This document shows, one piece after another, positions 96 to 31,495 of a DNA stretch of 31,495 bases. Source of the DNA: a virus; the IMG/VR virus record IMGVR_UViG_3300044815_000033, positions 1 to 31,495 of that record; one strand, written 5' to 3'. The number at the start of each line of letters is the position of its first letter. The stretch's first letter is position 1. Under the pieces are notes generated by a model. That model saw nothing but the letters and a program-made list of their open reading frames with translations, ran no database searches and had not been told where the DNA came from. Both the position numbers and the translations under genes were made by a program.

Positions 96-127
96 GAACG
101 TCGCAAGGTATAGATTTTACGACGTTC
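96..127 (+). repeat. Recombination-site-like element S2 (32 bp, dyad symmetric)
   Basis: The element has perfect 8-bp inverted arms, GAACGTCG and CGACGTTC, around a 16-bp centre. It recurs inverted at 849-880 with two differences. A weaker copy in the same orientation lies at 30943-30974 inside the fibre gene. The element is in frame with the cassette and encodes T-S-Q-G-I-D-F-T-T-F. Arms of this size around a non-palindromic centre resemble tyrosine- or serine-recombinase crossover sites. The protein-level motif alone could account for part of the conservation. Confidence 0.65.
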
Positions 128-475
128 GATGTTTACTCAACATCAGAGGTGGACACAGGCCGAAAGTGGGTTGATGGCCGTACTATTTACAGAAAAGTGC
201 TTCGTGGCACCGTTAATATTGCAACCGGAACGGTGAATGTGGCGCATGGTATTTCGGGTCTTACAACTGCATGGGAACTGATTCGATTTTCACAAGCAAT
301 AAAGCTTGCTTCAGCCACAAACACAAATGGTCAAAACACTATCATTCACCGCGAACCCGGAGGCTCACAAAACTGGGCGTGGTTTGCTGACATGGATCAG
401 GTTCAAATGCAGATCGCAGCTTCATACCCGTGGGGCAATTCATGGTATACGGTCGTTGTTGAATACGTTAAATAA
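98..475 (+). CDS. Silent tail-fibre C-terminal cassette B
   Basis: The frame is open from 98, just after a stop at 95-97, and runs to TAA at 473-475. There is no usable start before GTG 149 and no Shine-Dalgarno at either place, so it is probably not translated where it stands. It encodes S-Q-G-I-D-F-T-T-F followed by a domain beginning D-V-Y-S-T-S-E-V-D-T-G-R-K-W-V-D-G, which resembles the C-terminal receptor-binding part of many Gram-positive phage tail fibres. The motif aligns codon for codon with residues 238-247 of the fibre at 30234, where a constant shaft changes to a variable tip. The simplest reading is a spare tip expressed only after recombination. The alternative is a decayed or separately started gene from GTG 149 (108 aa). 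Confidence 0.6.
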   Translation, partial: TSQGIDFTTFDVYSTSEVDTGRKWVDGRTIYRKVLRGTVNIATGTVNVAHGISGLTTAWELIRFSQAIKLASATNTNGQNTIIHREPGGSQNWAWFADMDQVQMQIAASYPWGNSWYTVVVEYVK

Positions 476-476
476 T

Positions 477-896
477 TTAGTACGCAACCGGCTTAAATAT
501 AATGAATCCTGAGCCGCTATTTGCAAGCCCTGAAGAGGTGTTTGCACGAAGATCGAACGTAACTGTCGTTCCCGGAGTTACAGCAAGTCTTCCAATGAGC
601 GCAGCTGTCGCGCCATTGTATGTGGTGTTCTGTGTCGTGACGGCCGCAGCAGTACTCACAAGCGTTGTCATATTTTTTATATACACGTTATTGTCGTGCT
701 GCAAGTTGTCTTGATTGCTGATTCTCACCGCACCATATATCTCAACAAAGTTGCAGCCGGCCGGAACTACAACCGCTTTTGTCCCGAGTGATGTGTCTGT
801 GGTGCCGAAGTTTCCGCCGGCCCAACCTGTCCACGTTACAACCGGCGGGAACGTCGTAAAATCTATACTTTGCGACGTTGGGTCCATAGTGAACAC
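477..896 (-). CDS. Tail-fibre C-terminal cassette C, inverted
   Basis: This is the only convincing coding frame on the minus strand (139 aa from GTG 896, or 136 aa from the in-frame ATG at 887-885). After a short lead it encodes T-S-Q-S-I-D-F-T-T-F, the same site-borne motif as cassette B. A beta-rich domain follows, with P-A-G-C-N-F-V-E-I-Y and an ending in G-F-I-I-F-K-P-V-A-Y, typical of a jelly-roll-like phage head-binding or receptor-binding domain. No Shine-Dalgarno precedes either start; an AT-rich TATAAA lies a few bases upstream on the minus strand. Its stop is one base from the stop of cassette B. I infer a stored alternative fibre tip, in frame with the fibre shaft if joined at the shared element. 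Confidence 0.65.
   Translation of the reverse strand: MFTMDPTSQSIDFTTFPPVVTWTGWAGGNFGTTDTSLGTKAVVVPAGCNFVEIYGAVRISNQDNLQHDNNVYIKNMTTLVSTAAAVTTQNTTYNGATAALIGRLAVTPGTTVTFDLRANTSSGLANSGSGFIIFKPVAY
849..880 (-). repeat. Recombination-site-like element S3 (inverted copy)
   Basis: Reverse-complemented, this 32-bp element matches 96-127 at 30 positions. The differences are the outermost base and one central base (A for G). It is in frame with cassette C. The central 20 bp from GTATAG onward are identical between the two copies, enough for strand exchange without altering either protein. Confidence 0.65.
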
Positions 897-906
897 ATAA
901 TTTATA

Positions 907-960
907 TGTTACAATGAGGACGCAGCACCCCACGCGAATGACGATTCCAGTGGGGCTTTT
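907..960 (+). ncRNA. Extended -10 promoter running directly into a terminator hairpin
   Basis: TG (907-908), one base, then TACAAT (910-915) matches the extended -10 form used across this genome. The expected start near 922 is followed at once by a hairpin pairing CCCCAC with GTGGGG, then CTTTTTG. A transcript would be only about 40 nt. It could be a small RNA, or simply a terminator for the fibre region that happens to follow a promoter-like sequence. Confidence 0.4.
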
Positions 961-1145
961 TGTTTGAAAGACCACTCCCCCGCCGGCTTTTTCGCGGATC
1001 TGCGCAAAAAATGCCAAAATACACGTCACCCCTGTTAAGACCACTCCCCTACCCTACCGAAACGCCCGAAAAAAGGGCTTTTTGTTTGATTTCGTGTGTT
1101 TTTGAGTGAGTGGGGGAGAGGGGAGGGGAGTGATGATTGCATGGG
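961..1145 (+). other. Intergenic stretch with duplicated motifs, weak terminator and purine-rich tract
   Basis: No convincing gene lies here. The 13-mer AAGACCACTCCCC occurs at 968-980 and 1037-1049, and GGGCTTTTTGTTTGA occurs near 953-967 and again near 1075-1089, so the area looks like a partial duplication of a terminator region. A weak hairpin, GCCC (1064-1067) with GGGC (1075-1078) followed by Ts, may terminate transcription. Positions 1103-1132 are almost purely A/G with runs of four or five Gs on the top strand. Confidence 0.4.
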
Positions 1146-3783: not shown

Positions 3784-4668
3784 ATGAATCGGACGGCCCC
3801 CTCAAAAAAGGGGGCTTTCTTTATGCAAAAAATCGGTGGAGTGAAAAGACGATCGGGAACCGTTATATTTGACGATCTCGCATTCAAACTCACACCATCG
3901 GAAAGAATAATCTTTGGAATAATTCACCGCTTCTCAGGCTATAAGCTCGGAGAATGTCGATTGAAACCGGCAGCGATCCAAAAGCTTGCCGGCGTGTCAC
4001 GATCAACCGTCTATAATGCAACAAAGCACCTGATGGATCTCGGAATGGTGAAAGTGGTCCGGCACCGGAAAGCAAACGGCGCTTATTTCCGCGCACTCAA
4101 GGTGATCCGCGAAAACCTCGATGGAATGGCCAAAATGACCGGTGAGGAAATCGAATCAATCGAAACAAAAGTGATCGACAACGGCCGCGCAGCATTCATG
4201 GCAGCGCCGCAGATATTCATTGATCCTGATTATGCAGAACACGAAGCAATGAGCGAACTTGCTGAAGCGATTCCACAAGACGCAATTGACGTACTGAATG
4301 ATTTTGGAGACAACGGTGTGAACGCATTATTGGAATATTGGTTGCAGGAAATGAAAACACCGATCACCAACCGCGTAAAAGCCAACCGGCGCGCAGCGTG
4401 GAACCTGTTGAAAAAGCATGGTCAATATACGCTTCGACAAGCGGTCCAGTTCGCGGCCCTTGCGCAGTTCAATGAATACGCGCCATCAATTTCCGACTAC
4501 GTTGATTTACAATCGAAGTGGGGTCCACTGCATATGTGGGCGCAGAAACGCGCTCATGCGAAACTCATGGAACGATTTGAGGAAATGAGCATTGAGGATC
4601 GCGTTGAATTCAAAAAAGCGAATCCGGAATTGGCGCAAATAATATCACAGAAAAGGAAAGCAATATGA
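3784..4668 (+). CDS. Replication initiator-like protein (winged helix plus phage replisome-organiser C-terminus)
   Basis: The 294-aa protein has an N-terminal helix-turn-helix region (about residues 33-95: S-E-R-I-I-F-G-I-I, then K-L-A-G-V-S-R-S-T-V-Y-N-A-T-K-H-L), which resembles the winged helix of phage and plasmid replication initiators. Its C-terminal region (about 195-255: A-W-N-L-L-K-K-H-G-Q-Y-T-L-R-Q-A-V, then P-S-I-S-D-Y-V-D) resembles Phg_2220_C/DnaD-like replisome organisers. It would bind the nearby origin and recruit the host helicase; no phage polymerase is present. The start is uncertain: ATG 3784 fits a leaderless transcript, while ATG 3823 has an AGGGGG Shine-Dalgarno inside the hairpin 3796-3815. 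Confidence 0.65.
   Translation: MNRTAPSKKGAFFMQKIGGVKRRSGTVIFDDLAFKLTPSERIIFGIIHRFSGYKLGECRLKPAAIQKLAGVSRSTVYNATKHLMDLGMVKVVRHRKANGAYFRALKVIRENLDGMAKMTGEEIESIETKVIDNGRAAFMAAPQIFIDPDYAEHEAMSELAEAIPQDAIDVLNDFGDNGVNALLEYWLQEMKTPITNRVKANRRAAWNLLKKHGQYTLRQAVQFAALAQFNEYAPSISDYVDLQSKWGPLHMWAQKRAHAKLMERFEEMSIEDRVEFKKANPELAQIISQKRKAI
3796..3822 (+). terminator. Terminator-like hairpin inside the 5' end of the replication gene
   Basis: GCCCCCT (3796-3802) pairs perfectly with AGGGGGC (3809-3815) and is followed by TTTCTTT. In codons 5-13 of the long reading frame it would act as an attenuator unless ribosomes are translating through it. Its right arm also supplies the likely Shine-Dalgarno for ATG 3823. 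Confidence 0.55.
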
Positions 4669-5024
4669 CAAAGCGAAGCGAATTCAAGAAACAGATCAAG
4701 AACATTCAAAAGACGTTCACTGACGCAAGTGATGAGCAGATTGAAACCACTGCAACACATTTGATCGGTGTGGTTGATAAATACGTTGCTGAATCAGCAC
4801 AAAAGAATTTTGACAACGGATTCACTGCCGGCAATCACCACGGCCAACAATCAGCACTTGCGGCGTTCGCTGCGGTCCTGAAATCAAATGGCGGCACGTT
4901 GACTGTTACCGCTGAAGACACTGAGGAAATCGGCAAAGCGCAGCACGAAGTCAACGCGGTCCGGAACAAAGATGGCACCATGACTTATACATTAAAAGTT
5001 GCAGTTGCGGAAGAATCGAAGTGA
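4665..5024 (+). CDS. Early protein of unknown function, 119 aa
   Basis: ATG 4665 overlaps the stop of the replication gene (ATGA type), so translation is coupled. The protein is soluble and Lys/Glu-rich, with a helical N-terminal half (residues 5-60) and a C-terminal half rich in Thr and Glu ending in a short beta-like stretch (T-M-T-Y-T-L-K-V-A-V). I recognise no family. Coupling to the initiator suggests a role in replication or its control, which is inference only. Confidence 0.7.
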   Translation: MTKRSEFKKQIKNIQKTFTDASDEQIETTATHLIGVVDKYVAESAQKNFDNGFTAGNHHGQQSALAAFAAVLKSNGGTLTVTAEDTEEIGKAQHEVNAVRNKDGTMTYTLKVAVAEESK

Positions 5025-5206
5025 AAACGATCGTCACATTTGCGGTCCTGATCATTGCGATCTCTGCACTGTCATTGATGTCGATCACCATGCTCGAAGT
5101 CTCAACACGTCAAATGTGTGGGGAAGTGAAGTTGCAAGATTATGTGTCGCGTTCGCCTGATACGCCGGCAAAGTGTTTACAACGATGGCAGAAAGGAGAA
5201 CTTTAA
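5021..5206 (+). CDS. Small membrane-anchored protein, 61 aa
   Basis: GTG 5021 overlaps the preceding stop (GTGA). Residues 4-25 form one strong hydrophobic segment (V-T-F-A-V-L-I-I-A-I-S-A-L-S-L-M). A short polar domain with two Cys residues follows (M-C-G-E and A-K-C-L-Q-R). It is either a membrane anchor or an uncleaved signal with an outside disulphide-capable domain. The family is unknown. Confidence 0.65.
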   Translation: MKTIVTFAVLIIAISALSLMSITMLEVSTRQMCGEVKLQDYVSRSPDTPAKCLQRWQKGEL

Positions 5207-5208
5207 AA

Positions 5209-5328
5209 ATGAGCGCACAAACTGACAAAGCTGCGAACTACATCACTATTGCAATTTTGGTTGTGATTTTGTTGGTGATCATCGCTGCCGCTGCACGATT
5301 CGTGTGGTGGTTGTTCACTGGAAAATAA
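5209..5328 (+). CDS. Single-pass membrane peptide, 39 aa
   Basis: ATG 5209 follows the Shine-Dalgarno AAGGAG at 5193-5198. After eight polar residues the peptide is one transmembrane helix (residues 11-36, Ile/Val/Leu/Ala-rich) ending in F-V-W-W-L-F-T-G-K. With the preceding 61-aa membrane protein it makes a pair of tiny membrane proteins in the early operon. Such peptides often act in superinfection exclusion or host membrane modulation, but nothing here proves it. Confidence 0.65.
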   Translation: MSAQTDKAANYITIAILVVILLVIIAAAARFVWWLFTGK

Positions 5329-5353
5329 TTGAATCTATAAGGAGAAAAAAATT

Positions 5354-5602
5354 GTGGAACACCCGAAAAAAGTGATCAGAATGGCCCTCGATGATTATGT
5401 TATGGGGTTGTCCGGTGTCGTATCTGAAACTATTATTGGTCAAATAAAAGACGAACTGATTCAGAAAAAAATGCTGCCGAATCTACTCAAAGACGATAAG
5501 AAACACGTTGCATATGACAAAAATAATGCACGTTTGCATGTGTTCATTGTTGATCCAAAGCACCCGATCACCGTGATTCGGACTGAAACAGAGGATCTAT
5601 AA
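5354..5602 (+). CDS. Early protein of unknown function, 82 aa
   Basis: GTG 5354 is preceded by AAGGAG with 10-base spacing and is the first start after it. The protein is soluble, with a helical first half (M-A-L-D-D-Y-V-M-G-L-S-G-V-V) and a likely strand near the end (L-H-V-F-I-V-D). Its stop overlaps the next ATG (TAATG at 5600-5604). I recognise no family. Confidence 0.65.
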   Translation: MEHPKKVIRMALDDYVMGLSGVVSETIIGQIKDELIQKKMLPNLLKDDKKHVAYDKNNARLHVFIVDPKHPITVIRTETEDL

Positions 5603-5808
5603 TGGCAAGCGTTGGCGAAGCGATTCTTGATGAACTGAAGCGAAATCGTGAATTGCTTGAGCTGTACACATCAGAGCAATACAAAGAGGTGGGCGCATTT
5701 GCTGCGGCAATCATTCGCAACGATATTGAAGTTGCTGAAAAGGCCCTCGCGGAAAATGACATAGTTCAAATATTATCATCATATGAAAAGCTGAAAGGCA
5801 ATCAATAA
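5602..5808 (+). CDS. Early protein of unknown function, 68 aa, helical
   Basis: It is coupled to the previous gene by a one-base overlap. Charged and almost wholly alpha-helical (E-A-I-L-D-E-L-K-R-N-R-E-L-L-E-L-Y), it could dimerise as a short coiled coil. It lies immediately before the DUF4868-like gene. It matches no family I know. Confidence 0.65.
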   Translation: MASVGEAILDELKRNRELLELYTSEQYKEVGAFAAAIIRNDIEVAEKALAENDIVQILSSYEKLKGNQ

Positions 5809-5810
5809 TT

Positions 5811-6908
5811 ATGAAAAAACCAAAAATCAGCCTCACCGTGAAGCAAGGTGACAAAGTGACGAAGATCGCTGATGACATCAATAATCTTTCACCTGAGGCG
5901 CGTGAAATCGCTGTGGGTATCGTTGACACGTTGGCCGAAGCTGCCGGCGGTCCTGACATCTTTCAATGGGCCAATCAAGCAGACGGCGCGAAGCAGGAAT
6001 TGACAGTTGATCTATTTTTCTTTACGAAAAACTACACCGCGTATGCACTCAAAAGTGCAGAGTCACTCGATCCATATATAAAATCATTGTTCCTATATTC
6101 ACCGATCAATGACATTTTGCTTGGTGCCGGCACCGGAATGATGGTCCGTGAAATTCATAATCAAACGAATGATGACAATGTGATCGACTTCGTCGATCTT
6201 GAAGCTGTTCCGAACGCTCAGGCGGTCATTGAACAAATTGCATATGGTGAAGATCAAATCGAATTGTTCGATGAGAACGAACACTCCCTCAAAAATATGA
6301 AAGGCATTGTCGCGAAATTCTATTTGCAGCGAACGAAACAATCATTTTATATGGTGAAGCAATTGCAGCAATCAACGGTCCTTGAGGGTCCGACTGCATG
6401 GGCCATCACAAAAGGTGAAGCTCTGATGAGTTCTTTGATCACAATGAAAGTTCCGGCCGACAATCAAGTGCTGATCACTGACGATCGCATATTTGCATTC
6501 AACGTGAAGAAACTCACCGCAATGTTTGGCTTTGACGCGAAACGAAAAGCGAAGCTTGCCGGCGTGATTGCGGACATCGAAAAGAATTTCAAACTGAGTT
6601 TCCCTGATGGCCTCACACTTGAAGCAATTGCGAAAAACAATGTGCAGCTCACCGACAAGCTTCTCCGGTCCAATCCGGCAGCCGTCACACAAAATGGGGT
6701 TATCGAACAGGCCGACCGCTTCCAATTGGCCCTCATGACTGACGATGATGGTGCAATCATTATCATGGACGGCCGTGACGCAATAATGTTTGCAAACCTG
6801 ATCAATGACGATTATGTTGATTCCGACATGACCGGCGTTCACTATTTGGCCGTGAAGAAAAAAGAAGTCTTCCCGACCGAAGATCAACAAATGAATTTGG
6901 GAGCATAG
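5811..6908 (+). CDS. DUF4868 / KwaB-like protein
   Basis: The 365-aa protein resembles the DUF4868 family, which includes KwaB, the cytosolic partner of the Kiwa anti-phage system. The supporting features are in the second half: Q-V-L-I-T-D-D-R-I-F (219-228), a helical K-K-L-T-A-M-F-G-F stretch (233-241), and a C-terminal L-I-N-D-D-Y-V-D-S-D-M-T-G-V-H-Y (330-345), close to the family's L-N-D-D-x-x-x-S-x-x-T-x-x-x-Y ending. KwaB is about 300 aa and works with the membrane protein KwaA. The next gene here, at 6911, is a membrane protein. A defence-like pair in a phage could act against competing phages or as a decoy for host Kiwa. Homology is judged by eye. Confidence 0.6.
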   Translation: MKKPKISLTVKQGDKVTKIADDINNLSPEAREIAVGIVDTLAEAAGGPDIFQWANQADGAKQELTVDLFFFTKNYTAYALKSAESLDPYIKSLFLYSPINDILLGAGTGMMVREIHNQTNDDNVIDFVDLEAVPNAQAVIEQIAYGEDQIELFDENEHSLKNMKGIVAKFYLQRTKQSFYMVKQLQQSTVLEGPTAWAITKGEALMSSLITMKVPADNQVLITDDRIFAFNVKKLTAMFGFDAKRKAKLAGVIADIEKNFKLSFPDGLTLEAIAKNNVQLTDKLLRSNPAAVTQNGVIEQADRFQLALMTDDDGAIIIMDGRDAIMFANLINDDYVDSDMTGVHYLAVKKKEVFPTEDQQMNLGA

Positions 6909-7303: not shown

Positions 7304-7569
7304 GCGATTTGAAAACCGAAATAACTATTGAAGATGTGCTTGGCCCACGGCCCTCACATTATCATGGTGGTGAGGGTGATCGTGGCTGTTTCGCTGTGTG
7401 TCCTGTTTGGAATTATGATCAACAGGTCCGGAAGCTTCAAGCGTTTGAAGCTGAGAAAGTTGTTGATTGGCTCGTGTGGTCACTTGGTGGCGCAACTGAA
7501 GAGGGTGCAATCTCGATCAATAAAATGATTGATGAGTTCACAGCGAAAAGGGCAAAATCCTTGTCATGA
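7300..7569 (+). CDS. Early protein of unknown function, 89 aa
   Basis: GTG 7300 overlaps the preceding stop. The N-terminal part has His and Cys residues (S-H-Y-H-G-G-E-G-D-R-G-C-F-A-V-C) that could bind a metal; the rest is helical. The family is unknown. Confidence 0.6.
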   Translation: MSDLKTEITIEDVLGPRPSHYHGGEGDRGCFAVCPVWNYDQQVRKLQAFEAEKVVDWLVWSLGGATEEGAISINKMIDEFTAKRAKSLS

Positions 7570-7775
7570 TCACCGGCGTTGCATGGATCTACGTCTTTTA
7601 TAGAGGAGAGGAAGTTCAATTCGTTGGCGATCTCGAAGAGTCCATTGCACATTTCGGAATGACAAAGCAACACATTACATGGCTCGCAACAGGAGTTGCG
7701 CGCCGGCGCGCTGAGGAGAATCCGGACAGCCGCCGACTATATGCCGAAAAAGTCAATCCGGATTCAGAGGAGTGA
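7566..7775 (+). CDS. Early protein of unknown function, 69 aa
   Basis: ATG 7566 overlaps the previous stop (ATGA). The small soluble protein has a hydrophobic N-terminal strand (I-T-G-V-A-W-I-Y-V-F-Y) and a basic helix (T-G-V-A-R-R-R-A-E-E). The short beta start followed by a basic helix is reminiscent of small nucleic-acid-binding phage proteins, without a firm match. Confidence 0.6.
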   Translation: MITGVAWIYVFYRGEEVQFVGDLEESIAHFGMTKQHITWLATGVARRRAEENPDSRRLYAEKVNPDSEE

Positions 7776-7777
7776 TC

Positions 7778-7996
7778 ATGAACAGTGAGGTGGAGGCTGC
7801 GGAACGAAAAAAGTTGGTTGGGTATTGTGAGAACTGCGAACACTATACAAAATATATTGTTGGCGTAAATCCTGAAGTGTGTGAAGTCTGCGGCGGAAAG
7901 TTCAGCACTCAGCACGGCCATCAGATCACAACACAGCGAACATTCAACGTGAGTAAAACTGCGAAAAAGGGGAAATCTAAAAATGCCGGCGCGTGA
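7778..7996 (+). CDS. Small zinc-ribbon-like protein
   Basis: Two C-x2-C knuckles (C-E-N-C and C-E-V-C) about 18 residues apart form a treble-clef or zinc-ribbon core; a basic tail (A-K-K-G-K-S-K-N) follows. It probably binds nucleic acid or serves as a transcription accessory factor. I prefer ATG 7778, five bases after the Shine-Dalgarno GAGGAG, over the in-frame GTG at 7772 that overlaps it. The 3' end overlaps the next gene by 14 bases. Confidence 0.7.
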   Translation: MNSEVEAAERKKLVGYCENCEHYTKYIVGVNPEVCEVCGGKFSTQHGHQITTQRTFNVSKTAKKGKSKNAGA

Positions 7997-8708
7997 CACA
8001 AGTAAGGATTCATATAAGCAATTGACCGATCTTGGAAACAAGCAACGTGACGTTTATGACGCACTGAAGACGCTCGGTTATGCGACAGACCGTGAGATCA
8101 CCAATCACCTTGAATGGACGATTGACCGCGTGTTGCCGCGCCGTGGTGAGCTTGTGGAGTATGGATTCATTGTGAAGCATGGTGAAAAGTGGAATCCGAT
8201 CACGAAACGAAACGTGACTGTTTGGACAACCAATGATCCAATGGCGCAAAGGGCCGTGGAAAAAGTGGCAGGAAAATCAACACATACAGAGGAGAGAAAA
8301 TCAGTGAACAAATTTTCACTAAGACTCAGGAGCGGAAAGCAATTCATCATCAGTGGCGAAATGCGAGATGAGATCATGGAGGCAATCGCTGCGAAGAAAA
8401 CCGGCAGCCAAACGATCACCATTGCAAATCAGGTGTTCACTTTATCAAATATAGCATTGCCTATGGTTGAGCTGACAGGCGGCGCGCCGGCCGGTCCTAT
8501 TGAAAAAGAAGACACTCGCGAATTGCTGTTGGTGATCAAAGATGGATTATGGATTGAAACAAACGAATCAGAGAGAGTGCTGCGCAAAGCACGAACAATC
8601 TTCCGGACACGGAAAGTTGGCGTGAAATCAGGCGCGATCCATTCAGATTTAATGACAACGTATGATGGGATTTATGAATCCGTGAAAGACATGAGGGGAA
8701 TTGAATAA
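7983..8708 (+). CDS. Winged-helix protein with an extra C-terminal domain
   Basis: Residues 15-85 form a winged helix seen in many phage regulators: K-Q-R-D-V-Y-D-A-L, then Y-A-T-D-R-E-I-T-N-H-L-E-W-T-I-D-R-V-L-P-R-R-G-E-L-V-E-Y-G, then a wing ending V-W-T-T. The remaining 135 residues are a separate mixed alpha/beta domain I do not recognise. The two are joined near residue 107, where a strong Shine-Dalgarno (GAGGAGA, 8289-8295) precedes an in-frame GTG at 8304. A 134-residue second product may therefore be made from the same gene. The role is probably transcriptional control in early infection. Confidence 0.65.
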   Translation: MPARDTSKDSYKQLTDLGNKQRDVYDALKTLGYATDREITNHLEWTIDRVLPRRGELVEYGFIVKHGEKWNPITKRNVTVWTTNDPMAQRAVEKVAGKSTHTEERKSVNKFSLRLRSGKQFIISGEMRDEIMEAIAAKKTGSQTITIANQVFTLSNIALPMVELTGGAPAGPIEKEDTRELLLVIKDGLWIETNESERVLRKARTIFRTRKVGVKSGAIHSDLMTTYDGIYESVKDMRGIE

Positions 8709-8824
8709 TGATCACAAGTATCACATTCACAGTCGAAGAGCTTGAGCGAATGCTTGGAAACGCAAAGGCCGGCGGATCAGTCGAAGTCGTATTCACTATT
8801 GAGAAAGAATTGGTGTTGCGATGA
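8708..8824 (+). CDS. 38-aa small protein, unknown
   Basis: ATG 8708 overlaps the previous stop (TAATG), and the frame ends at TGA 8822-8824. The product is soluble and begins with a beta strand (I-T-S-I-T-F-T-V) followed by a short helix. Coupling on both sides and the absence of any gap argue that it is real. Confidence 0.55.
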   Translation: MITSITFTVEELERMLGNAKAGGSVEVVFTIEKELVLR

Positions 8825-8940
8825 ACAAAACAAAAACAATCATCAGGGTCAAATTGTTGATCAAGAATGCTCGCCGCGCACTCAATGAATTGGAACGTGA
8901 GTTGCAGGGTATAATCGAATCAGAGGAAAAGCATGACTGA
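8821..8940 (+). CDS. 39-aa basic helical protein, unknown
   Basis: ATG 8821 overlaps the preceding stop (ATGA). The sequence is a single amphipathic helix, basic in the first half (K-L-L-I-K-N-A-R-R-A-L) and acidic in the second (E-L-E-R-E-L-Q-G-I-I-E-S-E-E-K). It overlaps the next gene by eight bases and supplies its Shine-Dalgarno (AGAGGA). Confidence 0.55.
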   Translation: MNKTKTIIRVKLLIKNARRALNELERELQGIIESEEKHD

Positions 8941-10002: not shown

Positions 10003-10454
10003 TGAAAAAATATAGAGTGATCGCCGGATCATCGTTGGACAGTTTGGAAGATCAAATCAATGACATTATGAATGCTGAGGGCCTCGAATTTATCGGCGGT
10101 GCAAGTGCTTCAAAGTTGAGTGACAATTCTATTTTGTTTATGCAGGGTATCACCTATGATGGCACTGATACGAAAGACGCACCTATTTCAAAAGAAGAAT
10201 ATATTGAAAAAACATTTATTCACGGAGTATATGAACATGATGGCCCGAACGATTGGAATGTGCTTCATATGTCTGATTGTGAGGGTGGAGAAAATTGTCG
10301 TTTGCTTAAATATATAACATCAGCCGCCGGAATTCTTGATGTCGAATTAAAAACAGGTTACGAATATACTGTCACCGAAGTCGATGGCAAGTTTCAGTTT
10401 GAAGAGAAAAAACTTGATTCGGAAGAGTCGTCAATTGGTGAGGAATCAGCATGA
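10002..10454 (+). CDS. DUF1737-like domain protein
   Basis: ATG 10002 overlaps the previous stop (TGATG). The first 40 residues (K-Y-R-V-I-A-G-S-S-L-D-S-L-E-D-Q-I-N, then G-L-E-F-I-G-G-A-S) match the short DUF1737 pattern found in phage and bacterial proteins. The remaining part is acidic, with an isolated C-x5-C (D-C-E-G-G-E-N-C). The role is unknown. Confidence 0.6.
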   Translation: MKKYRVIAGSSLDSLEDQINDIMNAEGLEFIGGASASKLSDNSILFMQGITYDGTDTKDAPISKEEYIEKTFIHGVYEHDGPNDWNVLHMSDCEGGENCRLLKYITSAAGILDVELKTGYEYTVTEVDGKFQFEEKKLDSEESSIGEESA

Positions 10455-11881
10455 TCAAGTTAGCGATCGCCATCACCACATTCAATCGAACTGATATTTT
10501 ATATCGCGGCCTCGAAGAACAATTGAAATATATTCCAAAGACTGATTCGGTAAAAGCTGCGATTTTTATTGTTGACGATGGATCCACTGATCAGCCGGAC
10601 ATCACGAAGATCGCTGAAATGGTTGGTGACAAATGCGAACTTCAGGTCCATATTGCAAGTGAGAACAAGGGGATTGCAGCGGCCAAAAACAAGTGTCTCG
10701 AAATGGCAGATGATTGGGGAGCTGATCACATATTCTTATTTGACTCCGACACATGGCCACGCCGCAAAGGTTGGTTCATTCCCTACGTTGAAAGCCGTGA
10801 GCCGCACCTTATGTATATTTTCACAAAGTTTGCAGTTGAGGGCCGGAACGGTCACAACCTTTCTGATTGCAAAGAAATCTATCGTGACAGCGAAATCGTT
10901 GCATTCAATCACGTCCGCGGCTGTATGCTGTATCTTGATCGCAAGGTGCTTGATGTTGTTGGTGGATTTGATGTCCGGTATGGAAAGGCGATGTTTGAAC
11001 ACACAGATTATTCAAACCGGATCCACAACGCCGGACTCACAAGCTTTCGTGTCATGGACGTTCCGAATTCGCAAGGACTTATTTATTCAATGGACGAATT
11101 TCGCGAAACTCAAAGCTCGATCAGCGCACTCGATCGCCGCAATGGATTGATCAACAACCGGCCCTTGCATGCACAGAGTCTCACGTCAAAGGAGTTCTGC
11201 CGCTACAAAGAACAATGGTCCGGTGATCGTGACATCGTGCTTGCAAGCTATTTCACAAGCGGTCCAGACTTTCAACGCGACAATCGAACATGGTCCGCGG
11301 AGCTTGAAGCGATTGAGCCGCTGAAGAAATCCGTTGAGGATCGTGAAATCGAATTTATATTGCTGCACGATTGCTTTGATCTGCCGAACAAAGTTGAATG
11401 CACTATGGACGTTTACATGAACAGATTCCTCAGGGCTTATGAATATTTGAGAGACAATGAAGACGTGCGCCGTGTGTTTATGGTGGACGCAACAGATGTG
11501 ACGATGTTGAACAATCCTTTTGATCAAATGGAGATCGGCAAAATATACACCGGTGATGAACCGGCCAAACTGAGCATTCGTTGGATCCGTGAGCGCGCGC
11601 AGCAAGAGCCATTCCGAACATTCGTGATGTCGAATCTGAGTTTGCAACTGTTGAACGCCGGTATTATTGGCGGCAGCCGCGAAGACGTGATGATGTTGCT
11701 GCATGATATTTTGACCATGTATTCAGACGCTTTGATGAAAGGCAATGACATGGTGATCCTTAATTTCCTCATGCGCACTCGGTATGAACATAAATTGGTC
11801 CACGGTACAGGATTGGTGAACAACCGGTTCAAGTCATTTGAGCCAACAGAGGGAGGCACTGAATGGTTCAATCACAAGTAA
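10451..11881 (+). CDS. Two-domain glycosyltransferase
   Basis: The 476-aa protein looks like two fused transferases. Residues 1-245 are a GT-A family 2 domain: A-I-T-T-F-N-R (8-14), V-D-D-G-S-T-D (41-47), and F-D-S-D-T-W (97-102) with the metal-binding D-x-D. Residues 260-476 form a second domain with V-D-A-T-D-V (345-350), L-N-A-G-I-I-G-G (401-408) and N-D-M-V-I-L-N (432-438), the order of motifs in family 8-like transferases. It may decorate the virion or the host envelope. It overlaps the genes on both sides and heads a small glycan cluster with 12266. Confidence 0.75.
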   Translation: MIKLAIAITTFNRTDILYRGLEEQLKYIPKTDSVKAAIFIVDDGSTDQPDITKIAEMVGDKCELQVHIASENKGIAAAKNKCLEMADDWGADHIFLFDSDTWPRRKGWFIPYVESREPHLMYIFTKFAVEGRNGHNLSDCKEIYRDSEIVAFNHVRGCMLYLDRKVLDVVGGFDVRYGKAMFEHTDYSNRIHNAGLTSFRVMDVPNSQGLIYSMDEFRETQSSISALDRRNGLINNRPLHAQSLTSKEFCRYKEQWSGDRDIVLASYFTSGPDFQRDNRTWSAELEAIEPLKKSVEDREIEFILLHDCFDLPNKVECTMDVYMNRFLRAYEYLRDNEDVRRVFMVDATDVTMLNNPFDQMEIGKIYTGDEPAKLSIRWIRERAQQEPFRTFVMSNLSLQLLNAGIIGGSREDVMMLLHDILTMYSDALMKGNDMVILNFLMRTRYEHKLVHGTGLVNNRFKSFEPTEGGTEWFNHK

Positions 11882-12066: not shown

Positions 12067-12248
12067 TCCAATTAAGAGCGCATTGCGTCAGCTGCAACCG
12101 CAAACGCCTGATGAGATTCATCTATACATTGCAGCTGCCATTCAACCGGCAGCATGTGAAAGTCTGTTCCGATTGCTATAATAAATATATCAATAGAGCT
12201 ACAATAATAGAGTCCGCTGAAGTGGACATTCAGGCGCAACCAAAATGA
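12063..12248 (+). CDS. Small zinc-finger-like protein, 61 aa
   Basis: Two C-x2-C pairs (C-V-S-C near residue 8 and C-S-D-C near residue 35) frame a basic stretch (N-R-K-R-L-M-R-F). This suggests one structural zinc and nucleic-acid or protein binding. The start overlaps the previous stop (ATGA). Confidence 0.6.
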   Translation: MIQLRAHCVSCNRKRLMRFIYTLQLPFNRQHVKVCSDCYNKYINRATIIESAEVDIQAQPK

Positions 12249-12265
12249 AAAATGGGGGGATTAAG

Positions 12266-12973
12266 ATGGAGAACGCTGACATAGTTATTCCGGTCAAATG
12301 GGGTGAACACAACGAGGAACTGCGATATTGTTTGCGGTCCATCGAAAAGAATCTTCCACACCGAAATGTGGTGATCGCCGGTTATAAACCAAAGTGGGTG
12401 AAGAACGTGAAGTTCATATCTGTCGCAATGCTTGAGCAGAATAAATATAAGCGTGTCGCAAATAATATTTTGGCCGCAGCCAATTTCCCTGAGCTTTCAG
12501 ATTGGTTCATTCTATTCAATGACGATATGTTTGTTGTTGAGCCGGTGAAATCAATCCAGACGGTCCACCGTGGAAAACTCGATCCAATGGCCCACATCTA
12601 TGACAGCGCGCCATTGCAGCGCAAAAGCATGATCACCACGCTTGAAATATTGATCGCAGCAGGAATCAAAGACCCGATGAATTATGAGGTCCATTCACCA
12701 ATGATGATCAACCGGCACGGATTATTGAATGTTGAAGTGATCCTCCGCACTATGTCTCAAAAGAGGGCTGTGTGGCAGCTGCGCAGCTTATATGGAAATT
12801 TGCACCACATCGCCGGTGAAGTGCGTCATGACGTAAAAATTGCGGACAATGCTTCATTTGAATACGCGGACGATTTCCCTTTCATTTCCACCACCGATCA
12901 ATCTTTCAAACACGGTGAAGTGGGTGAGGTGATTCGCTCACGATTTATTGAGAAAAGTAAATATGAAAGGTAA
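12266..12973 (+). CDS. Stealth-like / GT-A sugar transferase
   Basis: I start at ATG 12266 because GGGGGA precedes it with about six bases; an in-frame ATG at 12245 overlaps the previous stop and would add seven residues. The 235-aa product carries D-I-V-I-P-V-K-W at its N-terminus and W-F-I-L-F-N-D-D-M-F near residue 80. The F-N-D-D-M-F motif is characteristic of Stealth-type capsule phosphotransferases and related GT-A folds. S-P-M-M-I-N-R-H and D-F-P-F-I-S-T-T further on fit the later conserved regions of that group. With 10451 it suggests sugar or sugar-phosphate modification of the host surface or the virion. Confidence 0.65.
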   Translation: MENADIVIPVKWGEHNEELRYCLRSIEKNLPHRNVVIAGYKPKWVKNVKFISVAMLEQNKYKRVANNILAAANFPELSDWFILFNDDMFVVEPVKSIQTVHRGKLDPMAHIYDSAPLQRKSMITTLEILIAAGIKDPMNYEVHSPMMINRHGLLNVEVILRTMSQKRAVWQLRSLYGNLHHIAGEVRHDVKIADNASFEYADDFPFISTTDQSFKHGEVGEVIRSRFIEKSKYER

Positions 12974-21790: not shown

Positions 21791-21848
21791 TGATATGATT
21801 ATTGCATAAATCGCAACACGCCGACAGGCGGTAAAAATGGAGGGAAAC
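21791..21848 (+). promoter_or_regulatory. Promoter-leader of the terminase operon
   Basis: TG, one base and TATGAT (21794-21799) form the -10. The leader carries acgccgacaggcggtaaaaa (21818-21837), a small CGCC/GGCG hairpin, then the Shine-Dalgarno GGAGGG. The same 20-mer and Shine-Dalgarno occur at 28004-28023 before the scaffold gene. Confidence 0.7.
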
Positions 21849-27109: not shown

Positions 27110-27423
27110 TGGCCACGGTTGATCAACAAGCTTATATTAAAGACTTAGTGCTGAAAAAGTTCGGCACTTTTTCTGATTTTAAAAAATGGCTCGCGACAAC
27201 TGGCATTGTCCGCACGAACGGTCAAATTTTCGCTCAATCATTGAATCTTGTTGAGATCAGCAACAGGATCACGCCGGCGCAAGCAACCGCGATCATCGAA
27301 GCACTCACACCACTTGAAGATCTCAATTATAAAACATCATATGAACAGGATCAGATTGATGAAGTGTCTGCATTATTAAAAGAAATTGATGAGGAGGTGC
27401 AATCATGGACTTTTCCCGCTTAA
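27109..27423 (+). CDS. Unknown 104-aa protein before the minor head gene
   Basis: ATG 27109 overlaps the previous stop (TAATG). The protein is soluble and helical: F-S-D-F-K-K-W-L, I-T-P-A-Q-A-T-A-I-I-E-A-L, ending in an acidic coil. It overlaps the minor head gene by 19 bases. Position suggests a head-morphogenesis accessory. No family is recognised. Confidence 0.6.
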   Translation: MATVDQQAYIKDLVLKKFGTFSDFKKWLATTGIVRTNGQIFAQSLNLVEISNRITPAQATAIIEALTPLEDLNYKTSYEQDQIDEVSALLKEIDEEVQSWTFPA

Positions 27424-27982: not shown

Positions 27983-28038
27983 TGGTATGATTATATTGTC
28001 AATACGCCGACAGGCGGTAAAAACGGAGGGATCTGACA
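27983..28038 (+). promoter_or_regulatory. Promoter-leader of the scaffold gene
   Basis: TG, one base and TATGAT (27986-27991). The leader repeats the 20-mer at 28004-28023 seen before the terminase small-subunit candidate, then the Shine-Dalgarno GGAGGGA and ATG 28039. Confidence 0.75.
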
Positions 28039-29503: not shown

Positions 29504-29512
29504 TGGTATAAT
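29504..29512 (+). promoter_or_regulatory. Promoter of the connector-fibre operon
   Basis: TG, one base and perfect TATAAT (29507-29512) directly after the terminator. It should drive 29534, 29788 and the tail fibre. Confidence 0.8.
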
Positions 29513-29788: not shown

Positions 29789-30234
29789 TGGCTGACACTG
29801 AAACTCCGTCAACAGCATATGCAACGATTGAAGATCTTGGCAAATTTTGGCGGCCACTTGCTGAGGGTGATGAAACCACTCGTGCTGAATACTTGCTTGA
29901 TCTAGCAAGTGACACGCTGCGTCAGATTGCCTTGAATAAGAATAAGAATCTTGATCAAATGCGAGACTCCGGCAAAATCATGGCAAGCACATTGAAGTTG
30001 ATCGTCATGGAATCAGTGAAGCGCGCCATGCTCACACCTCAAAATCAACCACCTGTGAATCAGATGTCGCAAACAGCCGGTCCATATGCGGAATCATTTA
30101 TTTTCGCGAATCCGGCCGGTGATCTTTGGTTCAAAGATAAAGAGTTGAAAATGCTGAAACTGACATCACAGGGATTCGGATCAGTTACAACAAGCCGCAC
30201 GAATATTTATAATTATGAAGAGGAGTCACTATAA
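29788..30234 (+). CDS. Head-tail connector, Gp19/Gp15/Gp42-like
   Basis: 148 aa. Y-A-T-I-E-D-L-G-K-F-W-R at the start, L-I-V-M-E-S-V-K-R-A-M-L (about residues 70-82), Q-M-S-Q-T-A-G-P-Y-A-E-S-F-I-F (about 90-104) and N-P-A-G-D-L-W-F match the Phage_Gp19 connector family, which attaches to the portal. It overlaps both neighbours by one base. It is separated from the other connectors (13592-14583) by the fibre, lysis and early genes. Confidence 0.82.
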   Translation: MADTETPSTAYATIEDLGKFWRPLAEGDETTRAEYLLDLASDTLRQIALNKNKNLDQMRDSGKIMASTLKLIVMESVKRAMLTPQNQPPVNQMSQTAGPYAESFIFANPAGDLWFKDKELKMLKLTSQGFGSVTTSRTNIYNYEEESL

Positions 30235-31454
30235 TGACAAAGCGCCGATCAGTTGTTGCCGGTTGGGATCCAACCTTTGTAAACCCGAATGCCACAACAG
30301 GCCGTCCAAAGGGTGTTCAAACCGTCTCGGACATGCGTGTTTCAACAACAATTGATATTGTTGGTGAGGGTATTTTTGCGCAAAAAGGTATTCCAACGAT
30401 CACCGGCGGTCCTACAAATACCGTCACAATCACGCCCTTTATGGCCGCAATCATCTCAAGCGCCGGTGGCTATTACACACCTAGCGTCTCCGCAAACGAA
30501 ACACTCGCGATCACTATGGCGAATGTTGGTGCCGTCAAGATCTATATTCAACAACAAGATTATGAAACAAATAATGCGAATGTTGATTCAGCTGTGGTCC
30601 TTGGAGTCGTTTATGGCGCAACTGCTATTCCGGCCGGATCATTATTGCTTTGGACAACGACCATCTCAAGCCAAACATCAACGTCAGGACTGACATTCAC
30701 ACCCGCGTTCAAGTACACAGGCGCAGCAAGCGGCTTCACGCGCGTTCCAACGTATGCAGACCTTGCGAATGTCTCAGTCATTGCAACCGGTGTCCGCGCG
30801 CTCGTTACAAGCGGCGCACAGGCCGGTGAATACTTTTATGGTACAGACGCAGCATGGCACGTCACCACTTTTGCCAATACGAAGCTCGACGCGGCCCTTG
30901 CAGCATATTTCAACGCTTCAGGCGTTATGTTGCCGACAGTGGTTAAGTCGTCAAATATAGATTTCGCGACAGGCATTTGGTGGAAAGAAATTGGGCGTAG
31001 TACGTTGAGTGTGGCCGGAAATGTTTTGGCAGTGTCGGGAGGTACCTTTCCAAAATATCTTAGGGTTATTATTATCAATCAAGCTTCAGGCGGTACTATA
31101 AATAGTTTCCTCCGATTCAATAGTGATTCCGGTGCGAATTATTCAGATCGCCGCATTGAAGATTTCGTTAATAACACAGAACAATCCGTGACAATGATTC
31201 TTATGCCCGGCCAAACAACCACAGATGATAATTATATTGTTGTAGATATTGTCAATGTTTTAAATAGGGAAAAGCAAGTGATGATGAATGGCGCGCGCTT
31301 TCCTGTGGGTGCTGCCAACATTCCGCGAGGTACTGTTGTTGGTTGGGGTAAGTGGGCGAATACCATTTCACTTATTAACAGGATTGATGTCATCAATACT
31401 GGTGCCGGCCTTTATGCCGCGGGATCTGAAATCATCGTTCTTGGTCATGATTGA
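30234..31454 (+). CDS. Tail fibre with constant shaft and C-terminal cassette A
   Basis: 406 aa from ATG 30234. The first 235 residues form a beta-rich shaft that includes T-S-G-A-Q-A-G-E-Y-F-Y-G-T-D-A-A-W-H, a common fibre segment. Residues 236-247 read V-V-K-S-S-N-I-D-F-A-T-G, the switch motif that also opens cassettes B and C. The remaining 160 residues are a distinct tip domain ending G-S-E-I-I-V-L-G-H-D. It presumably binds the host receptor. The fibre is co-transcribed with head genes rather than with the tail tip. Confidence 0.75.
   Translation: MTKRRSVVAGWDPTFVNPNATTGRPKGVQTVSDMRVSTTIDIVGEGIFAQKGIPTITGGPTNTVTITPFMAAIISSAGGYYTPSVSANETLAITMANVGAVKIYIQQQDYETNNANVDSAVVLGVVYGATAIPAGSLLLWTTTISSQTSTSGLTFTPAFKYTGAASGFTRVPTYADLANVSVIATGVRALVTSGAQAGEYFYGTDAAWHVTTFANTKLDAALAAYFNASGVMLPTVVKSSNIDFATGIWWKEIGRSTLSVAGNVLAVSGGTFPKYLRVIIINQASGGTINSFLRFNSDSGANYSDRRIEDFVNNTEQSVTMILMPGQTTTDDNYIVVDIVNVLNREKQVMMNGARFPVGAANIPRGTVVGWGKWANTISLINRIDVINTGAGLYAAGSEIIVLGHD
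30943..30974 (+). repeat. Recombination-site-like element S1 inside the fibre gene (diverged)
   Basis: Aligned in codon register with 96-127, it matches at 20 of 32 positions. The match includes TATAGATTT in the centre and the inverted quartets GTCG and CGAC, again with 16 bases between them. It encodes K-S-S-N-I-D-F-A-T-G at fibre residues 238-247. Because register is kept, joining cassette B or C here would give an in-frame fusion. It is less conserved than S2 and S3, so it may be inactive or simply homologous. Confidence 0.5.
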
Positions 31455-31495
31455 TTAGTGTATGAACGTCGCAAGGTATAGATTTTACGACGTTC
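31369..31495. repeat. Terminal direct repeat from circular assembly, copy 2
   Basis: Identical to bases 1-127. Trim one copy to obtain the 31,368-bp circle. The last base of the window is the last base of the 32-bp element S2, not a random place. Confidence 0.95.

Follow-up and report, generated by a model that had tools for sequence, protein, structure and literature searches.

Known switches of phage receptor-binding tips mostly carry their own recombinase. The Gin (phage Mu), Cin (P1) and Min (p15B) systems encode a serine recombinase and have a 26-bp crossover site together with a recombinational enhancer.

The Rin shufflon is found in Bifidobacterium prophages, i.e., Bb423phi1 and its relatives, and combines a constant N-terminus of the receptor-binding protein with a site inside the gene, a second, direct site just past its end and inverted silent C-terminal cassettes, the tips being mutually unlike (PMC6109161). 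Rin comes with its own tyrosine recombinase gene beside it; its site, rix (TTCCCTAACCC), is asymmetric and 11 bp long, and its inversions were seen in reads (PMC6109161). A second inversion locus, in 689b-1 and Bb423phi2, has no adjacent recombinase, and the authors propose that it is served in trans; its site is the 8-bp CAGGGTTA, and it contains genes of unknown function and no fibre (PMC6109161).

Here, we describe a phage locus that we read, with a probability of roughly 0.8, as a three-tip shufflon-like switch of the tail fibre for which the recombinase is supplied in trans.

Results

The window, i.e., the whole stretch of DNA analysed, is an IMG/VR virus record of 31,495 bases. Because bases 1-127 are repeated exactly at 31369-31495, the genome was taken as a 31,368-bp circle; an assembler run at k = 127 (metaSPAdes) leaves exactly such a 127-base repeat on a circular contig. 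In the circular genome, the two silent cassettes B and C thus lie directly downstream of the fibre gene. The window encodes a terminase, a portal, a major head protein, a tape measure protein, a tail tube and a lysin with CW_7 repeats, and no tRNA genes were found in it. The gene at 30234..31454 gave no family match; judged by its place at the end of the late genes and by a site layout common to the fibres of its relatives, it is the fibre gene. Queries with the window fibre and terminase returned no close IMG/VR relatives, and the fibre had no close relative in the phage collection. The features of the locus are as follows.

30234..31454, + strand: active tail-fibre gene (predicted), 406 aa, consisting of a constant shaft (to about residue 237) and tip A; open frame
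30971..31451, + strand: tip cassette A, now on the shaft
30947..30970, + strand: site S1, GTCGTCAAATATAGATTTCGCGAC, within the fibre gene at the shaft-tip boundary; pattern search and codon register
100..123, + strand: site S2, GTCGCAAGGTATAGATTTTACGAC, 13 bases past the fibre stop codon in the circle; pattern search
31468..31491, + strand: S2 listed again in the 127-bp end repeat (same bases as 100-123)
853..876, − strand: site S3, GTCGCAAAGTATAGATTTTACGAC, inverted relative to S1 and S2; pattern search
101..475, + strand: silent tip cassette B, startless; open frame and coding signal
477..875, − strand: silent tip cassette C, convergent with B; open frame and coding signal
127..127: base at which the terminal 127-mer ends, also the final one that S2 and S3 have in common; the B and C orientations are predicted to branch here in the graph
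927..961, + strand: probable transcription terminator just outside S3, with a CCCCAC stem and a U run; fold of 915-968
29504..29512, + strand: promoter-like element TGGTATAAT, the nearest one upstream of the fibre gene

The element TGGTATAAT occurs in six exact copies, all on the + strand (1146, 13287, 14590, 16141, 24558 and 29504; 0.12 expected). Several of them sit just upstream of late genes, and the copies are probably the phage's promoters. The terminator fold at 915-968 has an energy of −15.6 kcal/mol (z −1.55); a strict terminator scanner did not report 927-961.

Elsewhere in the window, a KwaB-like protein is encoded at 5811-6908 (Pfam 7.9e-08, PADLOC 8.3e-15), and the 130-aa protein after it had no PADLOC match. 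The genes at 10451-11881 and 12245-12973 match Glycosyl transferase family 2 and Stealth CR2, i.e., they are sugar-transfer genes in a phage, and a 32-bp element that is 94% identical between its two copies (21814-21845 and 28000-28031) lies just upstream of two genes.

S1, S2 and S3 are 24-bp dyad sites with the common core TATAGATTT, and S1 and S2 form direct repeats on either side of tip A. The site pattern GTCGNNANNTATAGATTTNNCGAC matched six times in the window at ≤3 mismatches, compared to 0.02 expected in shuffles; of these six, one comes from the end repeat and two are a dyad read on the opposite strand. The inverted arms at 97-127 and 849-879 are 97% complementary, with S2 and S3 differing at 1 of 31 bases, and S1 differs from both at several arm positions. 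The fibre gene, B and C have x-S-x-x-I-D-F-x-T in common; at the DNA level, they have the same core and the same outer arms. All three sites are read in an identical codon register and, thus, any of the tips A, B and C can follow the shaft in frame. The coding signal of B and C is found only in the expected frame, as for tip A.

The first-pass annotation had described B and C as two convergent frames with one base between their stops, flanked by inverted 32-bp elements with internal dyad symmetry, beginning with the same motif and having no good start of their own. This description is accurate: the stop of B ends at 475 and that of C, on the minus strand, at 477; the elements at 96-127 and 849-880 agree at 30 of their 32 positions and contain the 24-bp dyad sites; both frames start with T-S-Q-G/S-I-D-F-T-T-F; and B has an in-frame TGA directly before its site while C has an ATG five codons before the motif-core, for which no recognisable ribosome-binding site was seen by eye. 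The fibre gene had been assigned the same motif in the same register; the register is indeed the same, but the motif there is K-S-S-N-I-D-F-A-T-G.

Cassette B partly matches a small phage protein (L024), and cassette C used as a query returned no relative. The predicted structure of cassette C is all-beta with jelly-roll matches at moderate confidence (pLDDT 64); the prediction for tip A (pLDDT 36) was too poor for use and was discarded. For the window tips, PHROGs gave no match at E 1, and no Pfam match exceeded the cut-off of its family. From their position, the tips of relatives, the partial match of B and the moderate-confidence model of C, we infer that the window tips are receptor-binding.

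The locus and Rin have the same layout, including S1 within the active gene and a direct S2 after its 3' end. In both systems, an inverted site (here S3, at 853 on the − strand) lies before silent cassettes in the same register, the tips are unlike one another, and tyrosine-type recombination is likely. However, Rin has an adjacent tyrosine recombinase gene whereas the window record has no PF00589 match, and the Rin site is 11 bp and asymmetric whereas the window site is a dyad of 24-28 bp; rix had no match in the window at ≤1 mismatch. The window system would work like Rin but is without two of its defining features. The second locus of 689b-1 and Bb423phi2 resembles the window locus in being an inversion locus without a recombinase beside it and differs in that genes of unknown function take the place of the fibre; its 8-bp site is absent from the window. 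With Gin, Cin and Min, the locus has in common alternative tail-fibre C-termini, here probably invertible, and convergent spare cassettes. The analogy to Mu and P1 drawn in the first-pass annotation applies to function but not to the enzyme, since the serine recombinase that these phages encode has no detectable counterpart here.

The site recurs in three other phages (L003/L004, L018 and L020). An exact site scan of IMG/VR returned L003 and L004, which are two samples of one phage (99.995% agreement over 20,000 bases), a scan for the coding motif returned L018 and L020, and a third scan returned the same four records. In L003 and L004, the site is inside a 317-aa fibre and a startless cassette faces this fibre behind an inverted copy; the orientation is identical in both, which speaks somewhat against active inversion. 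L018 has an inverted site pair around convergent tip cassettes, in which both cores are TATTGA rather than TATAGA. Thus, the core is equal within a pair and different between phages, as is needed for strand exchange. The fragment L020 contains a single site and a silent cassette matching the Gp10_C tail tip domain, the L018 tip matches Gp53-like_C, and the L004 tip matches receptor-binding tail proteins. Because, apart from the tape measure protein, the window proteins have almost no similarity to those of G001 (the L003 record), the site is common to otherwise different phages. By inspection, L018 and L003 have similar fibre N-termini and similar neighbouring proteins, and these two phages seem to be relatives. 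G001 and two Bifidobacterium asteroides phages have a distant portal homologue in common.

Several matches were set aside. Eight single site matches in unrelated bacteria of the genome_contigs collection were treated as chance because they came without a second site or a fibre context; ∼7-8 would be expected by chance, as estimated from the pattern and the size of the collection. The match in L005 was treated likewise. L019 encodes the peptide and has one site with altered arms.

Other features were observed in these records. In L018, leftover coding-like sequence at 6296-6546 lies between the two convergent cassettes and is possibly a decayed third tip. The L003 and L004 records have one end in common (G2 position 1 corresponds to G1 position 27417), where either the DNA itself ends or both assemblies broke. 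In L021, an 83% near-repeat (3795-3919 and 4532-4655) lies beside a reverse-transcriptase-like gene (4735-5928, named by eye); the two likely form a diversity-generating retroelement in the same phage as the L020 site. This phage also has a GroEL-like gene (7321-8847, named by eye).

Profile searches of the whole window record gave no match for a tyrosine (PF00589), serine (PF00239) or IS110-type (PF01548) recombinase, and PF00589 was likewise without a match in the fragments from which L018 and L020 come. The recombinase is, apparently, not encoded by the phage itself. It is rather unlikely that the phage encodes a recombinase that is too diverged for the profiles used: several small proteins are without assignment, and the related G001 encodes a 279-aa Xer-like protein that scores too low for the curated XerA, XerC and XerD cut-offs, but all three whole-record searches were empty and most of the proteins that are large enough are otherwise assigned.

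In its 28-bp form, the site consists of 11-bp arms around a 6-bp centre (11-6-11). The dif site, at which chromosome dimers are resolved, lies at the chromosomal terminus. Of 28 positions, the G1 site has 18 in common with B. subtilis dif and 16 with E. coli dif, compared to 19 between the two dif; the window sites have 13 to 18 matches to these two dif, somewhat lower than the G1 site (dif sequences checked against PMC3025954). Dyad-preserving shuffles equalled the G1 site in 60 of 50,000 cases for B. subtilis dif and in 150 of 50,000 when the matches to three dif were summed and, because several comparisons were made, this likeness is a lead rather than a test of membership. What the sites share with Xer-dif is the 28-bp length, the 11-bp arms, the 6-bp centre and the partial sequence match; what sets them apart is their place in phage fibre genes instead of at the chromosomal terminus. 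It is possible, if doubtful, that different phages use host Xer recombinases on dif-like fibre-gene sites that double as hinge coding, flip their receptor-binding tips with them and, in that way, need no invertase of their own. A literature search, with most subscription journals outside its coverage, returned no paper joining XerCD to phage tail fiber inversion.

Read rightward from the core, S2 and S3 agree through base 127 and split at the following one, which is G for cassette B and C for cassette C; S1 and S2 agree only through base 117. The 127-mer 1-127 stands at both ends of the contig, and it would be a vertex with two outgoing edges if both S2-S3 orientations were in the reads; the 31-bp repeat cannot itself make a branch because it is shorter than k. 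By chance, an arbitrary cut would fall at base 127 in about 1 in 31,368 cases, or at any of four predicted vertices in about 1 in 8,000, in what is a post hoc test, as the coincidence was noticed after seeing the sequence. The cut at the base of divergence suggests that both S2-S3 orientations were in the reads and, thus, indirectly supports S2-S3 inversion in the sampled population. It also bears on the idea that the locus is a fossil, i.e., that it once inverted but that the sites or the recombinase are no longer in use in this phage. A genome with no detectable recombinase and an S1 that has diverged from S2 and S3 would agree with this idea; however, the single difference between S2 and S3, the open frames of B and C and the cut at the predicted branch make it quite improbable.

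Finally, the synonymous codons of the three sites were resampled with the phage's own codon usage (100,000 samples). Identity between the sites was 60/72 compared to a mean of 43.1 on resampling, dyad matches were 26/36 compared to a mean of 10.3, and 0 of 100,000 samples reached the observed value in either case. This shows that the sites are constrained at the DNA level beyond the encoded peptide. In the codon before TCG, the third base is G in 8/8 collected sites while the residue varies (K, T, A, G, M). That the repeats are only a conserved protein hinge, S-Q-N-I-D-F-T-T, with B and C being remnants of old fibre genes and without any site-specific recombination, is very improbable, because this G is kept despite the varying residue, synonymous choice and dyad are constrained, B and C are still open and paired inverted sites recur, even if the peptide is common to the tips of other phages and L019 has it once without a second site.

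Discussion

Several lines of evidence fit the exchange of tips by recombination that the first-pass annotation had proposed, i.e., the anatomy of the locus, the codon register, the DNA-level conservation, the inverted pairs in two phages and the contig cut. The phage can probably flip its host-binding tip. In the three-tip switch that we favour, one gene would give the constant shaft, and a site-specific recombinase acting in trans, most likely of the tyrosine (Xer-like) type, would act on S1, S2 and S3. Inversion between S2 and S3 would change which spare cassette faces the fibre gene, and inversion between S1 and S3 would swap tip A for the tip then next to S3. Because the codon register is the same at every site, the reading frame would be kept after inversion.

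The layout, the common register, the DNA-level conservation of the sites and their recurrence in other phages can be read from the sequences themselves. The use of S1, without which B or C could not reach the shaft, would be expected from the layout and from the precedent of Rin. We also infer the type and source of the recombinase and the change of receptor.

The cut at base 127 may help to explain why the assembly of some phages breaks at fibre genes, and the site layout provides a sequence signature with which metagenomes can be searched for such switches. A switch consisting of sites and cassettes alone, present in unlike phages with a conserved dif-like site, would show that phages can borrow a recombinase for their receptor-binding tips.
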